Assembly: GCA_025363455.1 (NCBI GenBank)
Contig: JANYDW010000031.1
Span: 1 to 64,000, forward strand
Reading direction: 5' to 3'
Length of the DNA stretch: 64,000 nucleotides
DNA from: Oleiharenicola sp.
Lineage (GTDB): Bacteria; Verrucomicrobiota; Verrucomicrobiia; Opitutales; Opitutaceae
Part shown: piece after piece, positions 21,121 to 23,923 of the stretch
How positions within the stretch are numbered: position 1 is the first letter of the stretch
Layout: each line of letters starts with the position of its first letter
Translations under genes and position numbers: made by a program
Notes under the pieces: generated by a model
Database searches by the model: none
The model's input: the letters and a program-made list of their open reading frames with translations, nothing else
Told to the model about the DNA's origin: nothing

Positions 21121-21178
21121 TGTAGGAGCTTGCTTGCAAGCGATGCCTTGGTGGGTCGCCTGTAAACAGGCTCCTACA
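21121..21178. repeat. TGTAGGAGC-type palindromic intergenic repeat
   Basis: Starts TGTAGGAGCTTGCTTGCAAG and ends AACAGGCTCCTACA, forming an imperfect inverted repeat between fpg and the M24 peptidase gene. It belongs to the TGTAGG...CCTACA family found at 11 places in this window. Confidence 0.85.
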
Positions 21179-21184
21179 TGTTGC

Positions 21185-22264
21185 TCACCGGATCTCCCAT
21201 CTATACGGATGTCGCGACAGCATCTTCGCCGGGCCCTTGGTCACTTGCACGACGTCCTCCCAGCGGCAGCCGCCGAGTCCGGGATAATACAGCCCCGGCT
21301 CCACAGTGAGCACGGATCCGAGCTTGAGTGGGGCAGCCACGGCGGGGGAGATGCGTCCCGGATCGTGTACCTCAAGCCCGAGCCCATGGCCGGTCCCGTG
21401 GATGAAGCCGACCGAGCCGCTCTTGCCGTGGCGAGTCTCGTAGCCGGCGGATTCGAAACACTCCGTCACGGCACGGTGCACGAGCCGGCCGTCGACGCCG
21501 GCGCGGATTGCTTTGAGCGCGCGCTGTTGGGCGTCGCGCACGGTGGCGACCATCCGGCGCTGGACCTCGCGCGGCTGGCCTTTCAAATAGGTTCGGGTCA
21601 TGTCGCCGAAATAGCCGGTGGCAGTGACGCGCGGGAAAATATCGATGATGATAAGCTCGTGTGGCCGCAGGGGGCCCGAGCCGCGCTCGTGCGGATCGCA
21701 GGCTTGGTCGCCGCCGGCCACGATGGTGTCCTGTGGGTTGCCGCCCTGCTCGTGGATCGCCGTCTCGAGGGCGAAACGCAGGCGCTCCGAGGTCAGCGCC
21801 TTGCCGCGATATACCAGAGTGCGGCCCTTGATACGGGCGGCGCCGAGGATTCGCTCGGCGACGTTGAAGCCGACGGAGCACAGGCGGTTGCCCTCGCGGA
21901 TGCATTCCGCCTCGCGGGCCGACTTGATTTCGCGTTCGGGAAACAGGAGGCCGTTGGCCAGCTCCAGTTTCAGGCCGAGTTTCGTCAGCTTGACGTAGAG
22001 GTGGGCGGGAAAATCGTCGGCGACGCGGAAGCGACGGATGCCATGTTCCCGGGCGACGGTGGCGATGATCTCGGCGGGGCCCGCTTTCCCGTGATACTTG
22101 GCTTTGGCCCGGGTCCGGCAGGCCTCGAGCGGGAGGACCAAGGCGAAATCGCCGGTCCTTTTCACCCGGCCGAATTCCAGCGCGCTCTGGACGGTGATTT
22201 TTTTGCCTCTCGCTCCGAAGGCGATGAATGGGTCATGGACCTCCACACCGCCAAAATAAAGCAT
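21185..22264 (-). CDS. M24-family (Xaa-Pro-type) metallopeptidase
   Basis: The 359-residue protein has the pita-bread metallopeptidase domain with ligands Asp in IIIDIFPRV and GDMTRTY, His in GTGHGLGLEVHD, Glu in TVEPGLY and Glu in WEDVVQV. All five are present. The N-terminal creatinase-like part begins MLYFGGVEVHDPF. It probably removes N-terminal residues next to proline. The start at 22264 was chosen at the first family-like methionine; the much longer antisense extension across the two lipoprotein genes is spurious. It is on the same strand as fpg. Confidence 0.9.
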   Translation of the reverse strand: MLYFGGVEVHDPFIAFGARGKKITVQSALEFGRVKRTGDFALVLPLEACRTRAKAKYHGKAGPAEIIATVAREHGIRRFRVADDFPAHLYVKLTKLGLKLELANGLLFPEREIKSAREAECIREGNRLCSVGFNVAERILGAARIKGRTLVYRGKALTSERLRFALETAIHEQGGNPQDTIVAGGDQACDPHERGSGPLRPHELIIIDIFPRVTATGYFGDMTRTYLKGQPREVQRRMVATVRDAQQRALKAIRAGVDGRLVHRAVTECFESAGYETRHGKSGSVGFIHGTGHGLGLEVHDPGRISPAVAAPLKLGSVLTVEPGLYYPGLGGCRWEDVVQVTKGPAKMLSRHPYRWEIR

Positions 22265-22302
22265 GTCGGCGCTGCGCTGGGTGCTGGCGTAGAGGAGCGG
22301 AG

Positions 22303-22382
22303 GTGGCGTTTTCAAGAAAGGGATGGTTTTTTGCCGACATTGACGATGAAGCCGTGCAAAAACGCAAAAATGTTTTCCCGCC
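22303..22382 (+). repeat. Duplicated 80-bp upstream element, copy A
   Basis: About nine in ten bases match the segment at 23340-23420. It includes GTTTTCAAGAA, GGGATGGTTTTTTG, CAAAAACGCAAAAA and the start codon context ATGTTTTCCCGCC of the following lipoprotein gene. GTTTTTTGC and GCAAAAAC can pair as a hairpin just before the start. Confidence 0.8.
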
Positions 22383-23224
22383 TTTTGCTGCTGGGTTCGC
22401 TCACGCCCATGCTGCTGGCGCTGGCCGGGTGTGCGCGCGCCGCGCCCCAGCCGGACGCCGGTGCGGCACCCGCCAAAACGCCAGTGGCACCGGTCCGCCC
22501 GGTCGCGGCCAAGCCCGCCGCGGGGGTGCCGGTCTATACCTATGAAGTTGTGAACGTCATGCCGCACGACCCCGCGGCCTTCACGCAGGGGCTGGTTTAC
22601 CTTGCCGACGGGGATTTGCTGGAGAGCACGGGTTTGAACGGCGAATCCTCGTTGCGCCGCGTCGAGCTCAAGACCGGTGCCGTGCGCCAGCGGGTGGCGG
22701 TATCGTCGGAGTACTTCGCGGAAGGTCTCGCGGTGCTGGGGGACCGGGCGTTTCAACTGACCTGGCGGAACCACAAGGGTTTTGTTTACGACTTGGGGAC
22801 GTTCCGCCGGGAAAAGGAGTTCGCCTACGAGACCGAGGGCTGGGGTCTCACCACGGATGGCCATTCGCTGATCCTGAGCGATGGCACCGATGAGATTCGG
22901 TTCCTCGATCCCGTTAGTTTTGCCGTTCAGCGGACGATTCGCGTCATCATGATCGACCATCCCGTCACCCAGTTGAACGAGCTCGAGTACATCAAGGGGG
23001 AGATCTTCGCGAACGTCTGGGGCGCCAACTACATCGTGCGCATCGACCCGGCGACGGGACACGTCACTGGACTGGTTGACTTCACGGGCCTGCTGGCGCC
23101 GGAGGACCATGGCGCGACCACGGAGGTATTGAATGGCATCGCCTACGATGCCGCGGGCGACCGGCTGTTTGTCACGGGCAAGCGCTGGCCGAAGCTTTTC
23201 GAGGTGCGCCTGAAAGTGAAGTGA
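22370..23224 (+). CDS. Glutaminyl-peptide cyclotransferase-like lipoprotein
   Basis: The 284-residue product starts with a lipoprotein signal, MFSRLLLLGSLTPMLLALAG followed by Cys, and a proline/alanine linker. The mature part is a beta-propeller of the plant/bacterial glutamine cyclotransferase family: PHDPAAFTQGLVY, ESTGLNGESSLRRV, YFAEGLAV, LTWRNHKGFVYD, GWGLTTDG, LSDGTDEIRFLDP and LNELEYIKGEIFANVW. It would convert N-terminal glutamine to pyroglutamate at the cell envelope. An in-frame ATG at 22346 is a possible longer start. The gene is preceded by an 80-bp element shared with the next lipoprotein gene. Confidence 0.9.
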   Translation: MFSRLLLLGSLTPMLLALAGCARAAPQPDAGAAPAKTPVAPVRPVAAKPAAGVPVYTYEVVNVMPHDPAAFTQGLVYLADGDLLESTGLNGESSLRRVELKTGAVRQRVAVSSEYFAEGLAVLGDRAFQLTWRNHKGFVYDLGTFRREKEFAYETEGWGLTTDGHSLILSDGTDEIRFLDPVSFAVQRTIRVIMIDHPVTQLNELEYIKGEIFANVWGANYIVRIDPATGHVTGLVDFTGLLAPEDHGATTEVLNGIAYDAAGDRLFVTGKRWPKLFEVRLKVK

Positions 23225-23339
23225 CCGCCGCAAGCCGCGACGGATCGGGCGCTGAGATGCGCCAGGTCGACTTCGAATTCTTGGCGCGCGGGTGACCGAC
23301 GCGGCGGACCACGCTTGGAACCTGCTGTCACGAGCAGTG

Positions 23340-23420
23340 GTGACGTTTTCAAGAACGGGATGGTTTTTTGGCGACTTTGACCGTGAAGCTGGGCAAAAAC
23401 GCAAAAAATGTTTTCCCGCC
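23340..23420 (+). repeat. Duplicated 81-bp upstream element, copy B
   Basis: The second copy of the element at 22303-22382, again ending over the start of a lipoprotein gene (ATGTTTTCCCGCC). Differences are about eight substitutions and one extra A. It has no Shine-Dalgarno sequence; the start is preceded by an A-rich run. Confidence 0.8.
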
Positions 23421-23923
23421 GCCATTTTCTCTCCTTGTTCGCCACTGCCGTCATCGTGCTGCTCTCCGGCTGTGGGTACGAGGCCAAGAAACCCCCTGCG
23501 CCGAAGACCTTGGACAATCGGTTCGCCATCAAGGTGGGCGGCCAGGTCGTGCAGATGCAGGTCGCTATCCTGGCGCACGAGTTGCAACAGGGGCTGATGT
23601 TTCGGAATTCGATGGGCGCGGACGAGGGGATGATCTTCCTGTACGACCGCCCGCAGCAGATGAGTTTCTGGATGCGGAACACCGAGCTTCCGCTCGACAT
23701 TGGCTATTTCGATTCCGACGGAAAGTTGAAAGAGGTCTATAACATGCTGCCCCATGACGAGCGGCCAATCCAGTCGCTGGGACTTCGGCAGTTCGCTTTG
23801 GAGATGAACCAAGGTTGGTTTCGCGCGCACGGCCTGAAACCTGGCGATGAGATCGACATGGTGGCGCTGGCCGAGGCCATCCGTGCCCGGGGTATGCAGC
23901 CGTCGGACTACCGGCTGAAGTAA
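23408..23923 (+). CDS. DUF192 lipoprotein
   Basis: The 171-residue protein has a lipobox signal (FATAVIVLLSGC) and a DUF192 domain: ELQQGLMFRNSMGADEGMIF, QQMSFWMRNTELPLDIGYFD, and GLRQFALEMNQGWF leading to GLKPGDEI. DUF192 proteins are small beta-barrels of unknown role, often extracytoplasmic. It shares its upstream element with the cyclotransferase-like gene at 22370, which suggests common regulation. Confidence 0.9.
   Translation: MFSRRHFLSLFATAVIVLLSGCGYEAKKPPAPKTLDNRFAIKVGGQVVQMQVAILAHELQQGLMFRNSMGADEGMIFLYDRPQQMSFWMRNTELPLDIGYFDSDGKLKEVYNMLPHDERPIQSLGLRQFALEMNQGWFRAHGLKPGDEIDMVALAEAIRARGMQPSDYRLK

Follow-up and report, generated by a model that had tools for sequence, protein, structure and literature searches.

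This study examined a lipoprotein locus in a window of 64,000 nucleotides (the whole stretch of DNA analysed, positions 1 to 64,000 of contig JANYDW010000031.1) from Oleiharenicola sp., a member of the Opitutaceae whose genome (G000, the window genome) is a draft assembly of 83 contigs. An M24 metallopeptidase gene is followed, in divergent orientation, by a glutamine cyclotransferase (QC) gene and a DUF192 gene, and each of the latter two is preceded by a copy of the same leader. The copies were delimited by direct-repeat search, BLAST and comparison with relatives, and the features are as follows.

21185..22315, minus strand: M24 metallopeptidase gene, transcribed away from the lipoprotein genes; its presumed TTG start (22315) follows from the start in relative G001, whose M24 protein begins MKLPPPLIY
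22295..22382, plus strand: copy A of the leader, comprising the M24 first codons (minus strand), the intergenic start region and QC codons 1-4 (MFSR)
22327..22332, plus strand: T6 run of copy A
22356..22372, plus strand: A-rich core and start codon of copy A, the part most widely conserved in the family
22370..23224, plus strand: glutamine cyclotransferase (QC; PF05096, 6e-95), with a lipoprotein-like signal peptide by eye
23225..23331, plus strand: spacer of 107 nt between the QC stop and copy B
23332..23420, plus strand: copy B of the leader, upstream of DUF192, with an M24 first-codon remnant at its left end
23364-23369, plus strand: T6 run of copy B
23393-23410, plus strand: A-rich core and start codon of copy B, with one extra A
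23408..23923, plus strand: DUF192 protein (PF02643, 7e-29), the usual occupant of the slot, with a lipoprotein-like signal peptide by eye

By BLAST, positions 22295-22382 and 23332-23420 form a direct repeat of 88% identity (E 1.6e-24). The match of about nine in ten bases described in an earlier note on this DNA is therefore real, and it begins 8 bases earlier than was noted there. A direct-repeat search returned 85 nt at 84% ungapped identity and a spacing of 1037, the ungapped value being lower than the gapped one because copy B has one extra A (AAAAATG against AAAAAATG). Both copies cross the ATG into MFSR in the predicted proteins, as the earlier note had also seen, and the QC and DUF192 sequences then diverge; in QC the leader codons continue in frame into the signal peptide. 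No Shine-Dalgarno-like sequence was seen by eye upstream of either ATG, in agreement with the same note. Shuffles of the window yielded on average 0.00 matches to the T6 half of the leader (at most 3 mismatches) and 0.03 to the A-rich half (at most 2 mismatches), and the search for further copies that had been proposed, when run by BLAST over the 4.23 Mb of the genome, returned none at E 0.001.

The edges of the copies indicate what was copied. The left end of copy A is coding, positions 22295-22315 being the first seven M24 codons on the minus strand (LKTPPPL), so the element is not wholly non-coding as had been supposed, although the genes downstream of the two copies are indeed unrelated. 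At the left end of copy B there is a diverged version of these M24 codons, with the remainder of the M24 gene absent. This edge is abrupt, leftward similarity ending inside M24 codon 7, and the 107 nt between the QC stop and copy B showed no M24 similarity (local score 11, shuffle mean 11.9; these shuffles, like those behind the leader-matching scores, preserve base composition only). Since copy B carries the M24 start without the rest of the gene, the copied unit is the slot's own intergenic region, spanning M24 codon 7 to just beyond the fourth lipoprotein codon. Separately, an inverted repeat with 23-nt arms of 83% complementarity (TGTAGGAGC...GCTCCTACA) lies at 21121-21178, between a DNA-glycosylase gene and the M24 gene, and looks like a REP-type palindrome.

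The slot between M24 and the lipoprotein gene could be followed in relatives. With M24 as the sole anchor, a search gave 48 named Verrucomicrobia loci, most of them bearing the label Opitutaceae, Opitutia or Lacunisphaera, in which the slot held a DUF192 gene divergent from M24 in 41, a divergent QC gene in four, and a QC gene co-oriented with M24 in one. The remaining two, L028 and L042, were cut by contig ends (L042 shows a DUF192 fragment), and none of the 46 readable loci had QC and DUF192 together in one slot. The divergent M24-DUF192 arrangement was also present in all 25 further DUF192 loci fetched by coordinate from family genomes, which were chosen by hand across genera (a 26th, L115, was misplaced and left out). 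A single leader separates M24 from DUF192 in G001, G014 and G007, and M24 from QC in G019. Starting from QC, M24 was found nearby, divergent or co-oriented, in 33 of the 42 QC genomes of the family (970 bases away in G165), and no M24 was found in the stretch examined around QC in the other nine, some of which lie on short contigs. In L058, from an Opitutus draft, QC is co-oriented with M24 and the frames of both genes look fragmented, perhaps through sequencing errors.

The far side of the slot is shared as well. An open reading frame (ORF) beyond the slot in 24 of the 29 QC-type loci matched 37-38 of the 58 DUF192-type loci; of the five QC-type loci where no match was found, L098 and L106 have less than 1.7 kb on that side, and the other three have more. 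The far-side gene (e.g., L005:504-986; MAKIEV..., ~160 aa) is conserved in the family and convergent with the lipoprotein gene, and it had no Pfam or NCBIfam match. In the window genome it is not beside the slot. This ORF matching replaced a translated comparison of whole loci, which proved too noisy.

While the occupant of the slot varies, what stands in front of it is largely constant. A DUF192-type leader was detected at all 13 distinct divergent QC loci outside the window genome, with scores of 67-133 against 34 for the best shuffle. The core AAAACGCAAA, allowing at most one mismatch, occurs at 44 of 58 DUF192 loci and again at 13 of 13 divergent QC loci, and 19-20 bases before it stand a TTGA and a TTAGCC-like box, 15-16 bases apart (36 of 44 DUF192 loci, 12 of 13 QC loci; the two boxes were first picked by eye and then counted by regular expression). 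The earlier idea of a functional leader gains from this family-wide occurrence at the same position before the same gene. The core is missing from 14 of the 58 DUF192 loci, and the leader is therefore itself replaceable. In G002, G016, L014 and L031 the usual leader gives way to a third type, which contains CAATTTAGGATTTGCG or something very near it.

The constancy extends into the proteins. In the Lacunisphaera group the ATG follows directly on the core (AAAAATG, usually MFSR), and in other clades the core itself encodes the first residues, a GTG or ATG start being followed by AAA AAY GCA AAT CCG to give MKNANP. Starts of the MKNANP type are common to DUF192 and QC, with KNAN in 24 of 58 DUF192 rows and 10 of 14 QC rows. 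In G019 (L007 and L015) the QC ATG lies two bases behind a five-codon vestige of a DUF192 start (MFSRL, stop TGA), reading ATGTTTTCCCGGCTCTGA AA ATG, an arrangement that looks like stop-restart coupling or translational re-initiation. The QC of G012, which lies outside the slot, begins MKKLLTLLLRSL.

Placing the DUF192 or QC state on an M24 tree required 8 changes by parsimony, the tree being a quick one with SH-aLRT support only and 26 of 87 inner branches drawn open. Its input was 90 of 108 hits, identical ones and those shorter than 250 residues having been dropped, and G000 fell in a five-row clade in which the other four rows are DUF192. In the QC tree G000, G019 and G012 group together (SH-aLRT 98). 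Taken at the level of sequence, the relatives show DUF192 and QC taking each other's place downstream of an unchanging leader, the putative promoter and the N-terminus staying while the gene body changes.

Within the family the two genes rarely meet. Among 250 Opitutaceae genomes, QC was present in 42 and DUF192 in 201, with neither in 10 and both in only three (G000, G012 and G103), against 33.8 doubles expected by chance; presence here means protein similarity at E 0.001, so that diverged copies may be missed, and many of the genomes are drafts. Fisher's test gives 1e-32 when genomes are treated as independent, and the 8 parsimony changes are the safer measure. QC is spread over 18 of 49 genera. 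Of the three doubles, QC and DUF192 are side by side in G000 only; in G012 and G103 the QC gene has neither M24 nor DUF192 nearby and no leader core before it, and in G103 the two genes are 0.47 Mb apart. The DUF192-positive family genome G074 has a match to the QC profile barely above the cut-off (22.6 vs 22.3 bits) and would be a fourth double if counted; the protein search for QC does not include it. In a phylum sample of 288 genomes, with QC in 31 and DUF192 in 193, 15 doubles were found against 20.8 expected (Fisher p 0.026), two of them (G074 and G359) with QC scores barely above the cut-off. A general exclusion of the two was rejected, as 15 of the 31 QC genomes in the phylum sample also have DUF192. 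Strong exclusion is a property of this family and not of the two proteins generally, and the complementary distribution of these unrelated protein families is clear only within it.

The way in which the leader might serve both genes can be read in part from the relatives. The TTGA and TTAGCC-like boxes would be the -35 and -10 elements of a promoter, with the leader driving transcription and translation presumably starting at the shared ATG from a short leader. Each copy in the window would then most likely supply a promoter and a start region devoid of a Shine-Dalgarno sequence, placing QC and DUF192 under nearly the same control. A scan for the sigma-70 consensus found none in the window leader, and is uninformative as it finds none in a typical relative either. 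The T6 form of the leader contains no TTGA/TTAGCC boxes, and because it has diverged from these boxes of the family, this account is at its weakest where it ascribes promoter activity to the window copies. As a general feature of the window, box pairs were discarded, since they are not enriched (TTGA/TTAGC, 1 found vs 0.37 expected; TTGA/TANNNT, 3 vs 3.97).

The history of the two copies was approached by comparison with G001. In its left part the leader reads alike in A and B where G001 differs, so the copying took place in the G000 lineage; in the right part each has its own changes. A scan of the 21 genomes of the genus located the T6 form at this locus only, twice in G000 and once in G001, and one further match with 3 mismatches, on another contig of G010, is probably due to chance. 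Copy A and G001 share 95% over 56 nt, as against 76% for the M24 DNA and 69% for the DUF192 DNA. The M24 tree, however, pairs G000 with G010 and G001 with G016, and both of these sisters have other leaders, so the leader itself may have moved, a comparison of leader and flanking-gene histories that involves one stretch of ~56 nt in 3 copies. The T6 leader has either been strongly constrained or passed between lineages. In G010 (L013) about 100 extra bases (GTCATTGCGAGGAGC...GCGATGACAAT), which look like a dispersed repeat, lie in the intergenic region before M24, upstream of an otherwise typical leader.

The favoured explanation, with a probability of about three in four, is that the native start region of the slot was duplicated as QC was added beside the resident DUF192. 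The duplication, its edges, the leader as the slot's own and the near exclusion within the family are what the compared sequences directly show. The slot, with M24 leading one way and a lipoprotein the other, would have a native start region made up of a promoter, a short A-rich 5' region lacking a Shine-Dalgarno sequence, and the opening codons of the lipoprotein gene, which read MFSR here and MKNAN... in other clades. QC would have been inserted between this leader and DUF192, and the accompanying duplication of the leader would have left one copy before each gene. One-sided homologous recombination could have achieved this, a QC-bearing fragment being anchored in leader A and its other end joined, with no homology, at the point within M24 codon 7 where copy B begins on the left, beside an intact leader-DUF192 unit. 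The leader is common to DUF192-type and QC-type loci; the QC leader of G019 is not of the T6 form while both copies in the window are, and a G019-like donor would therefore not have brought the whole leader. Several observations weigh against this reading: 14 of the 58 DUF192 loci have no core, neither the boxes of the family nor a sigma-70 consensus is seen in the T6 form, that form is missing from the M24 sisters, box pairs are not enriched in the window, the far-side gene is not next to the slot here, nine of the 42 QC genomes show no M24 around QC, and the genome is a draft. The earlier note had allowed for a chance local duplication. The copying does appear to have been local, but it took in the start region native to this locus, and it forms part of a gene swap that recurs.

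Two alternatives give the leader a different nature. An RNA regulatory leader (an attenuator or riboswitch-like T6/A-run hairpin) controlling both lipoproteins is favoured by the pairing of the T6 run with the A-run, which had been pointed out before and is indeed drawn when 57-58-nt stretches of the two copies are folded to their lowest energy, by 17-nt arms of 71% complementarity around that pairing in copy B, and by the conservation between copy A and G001 (95% over 56 nt vs 69-76% for the flanking genes). The strength of the pairing, however, is no better than in shuffles: all five folds (a long and a short stretch of each copy, plus G001) were no more stable than these (z +1.47, +0.41, +1.77, +0.57 and +0.31). 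In addition, the 17-nt arms were not reported for copy A, the other 56 leaders tabulated have no T6 run, and Rfam gave no match in 22100-23600 up to E 1. The hairpin leader was rejected on its pairing strength and the missing Rfam match, and control by such an RNA is very improbable. Even slighter odds are given to insertion of a mobile promoter, which had also been suggested, or of a dispersed non-coding element in front of the two unrelated genes. The same sequence does precede unrelated genes, and the T6 form does not track the M24 tree, but M24 codons lie inside copy B, the copies have no inverted repeats at their ends (no arms of at least 8 nt framing both alike), no further copy was found in the genome at E 0.001, and in the genus the T6 form is confined to this locus bar the one probable chance match. 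A dispersed element spread through the genome was likewise dismissed, as there are 2 copies only, both in one slot.

Two others accept the leader as native and differ on how the pair arose. The family ancestor might have had the tandem leader-QC-leader-DUF192, kept here and elsewhere reduced by recombination between leaders, with loss of QC. Direct repeats flanking QC would ease such a loss, QC is scattered (18 of 49 genera), and divergent QC loci carry DUF192-type leaders. Nevertheless, an ancestral tandem is unlikely: both genes occur in only 3 of 250 genomes and are adjacent in G000 only, QC is found in two orientations, the left parts of the two copies are alike where G001 differs, and G000 is nested among DUF192 genomes. 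It is quite unlikely that the locus is an assembly chimera of QC-type and DUF192-type strains, for which the draft state of the genome (83 contigs) and the shared leader as a natural point of mis-joining would speak, since the copies differ at ~12%, both have the T6 form, which is not that of the G019 QC locus, and a 107-nt spacer separates QC from copy B.

The window genome has both alternatives adjacent, with the joints still readable. The constant start module with two mutually replacing, unrelated lipoproteins is the interesting part of the finding. Outside toxin loci it would be uncommon for genes to be replaced in this way, the start module staying fixed while unrelated genes change behind it (8 parsimony changes in one family). 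DUF192 is a widespread family of unknown function, and its solved relatives 3m7a and 3pjy carry no more telling names than 'uncharacterized' and 'hypothetical'; through its near exclusion with QC in the slot, the family is linked to enzymes of a known family and to an M24 peptidase. A bolder proposal, which is speculative and judged unlikely, is that the Opitutaceae possess a 'lipoprotein socket' flanked by the M24 peptidase gene and a small conserved one, an invariant module of promoter and start codon into which DUF192 or QC is plugged, repeatedly swapped by recombination as alternative solutions to the same envelope task. If it were true, DUF192 lipoproteins would be functional stand-ins for glutaminyl cyclase or its pathway, the family would gain a testable handle, and the window genome would represent a swap caught half-way.

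In the open-access literature searched no description was found of a constant start module with two interchanging unrelated lipoproteins. Searches of the same literature found no paper for non-orthologous gene displacement together with 'anticorrelated', no DUF192 in title or abstract among the matches listed, no matching paper containing DUF192 for QC, DUF192 and Verrucomicrobia, and nothing for Opitutaceae promoter and transcription start. Several known phenomena are nonetheless comparable. Non-orthologous gene displacement is an established concept, and the present case resembles it in that, within one bacterial family, a single slot is almost always occupied by one or the other of two unrelated protein families; it differs in their frequent coexistence in the wider phylum, and a common job for the two proteins is conjectural. 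Tandem duplication of a promoter region is likewise a known kind of event, and here too a start region has been copied locally and in direct orientation, except that the copies flank a newly gained gene.

For the effector/immunity modules of the Vibrio cholerae type VI secretion system (T6SS), homology-facilitated illegitimate recombination has been proposed to displace genes next to a conserved 5' anchor (PMC5361080); the same source calls the model rare for Vibrio effector loci and also mentions Rhs loci. As in those modules, an upstream stretch is constant, the downstream gene is exchanged, and the older gene is left downstream of the newcomer. In contrast to them, the genes here encode unrelated lipoproteins, with no toxin or immunity gene, and the anchor is the start region, itself duplicated, the mechanism being deduced from the joints only. 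Horizontal regulatory transfer, or intergenic switching (Oren et al. 2014, as described in PMC5890482), is similar in that the leader need not share the history of the flanking genes, the T6 leader being found in G000 and G001, which are not M24 sisters. Compared with that description the main event at this locus is reversed, for it is the gene body that changes behind a constant leader.
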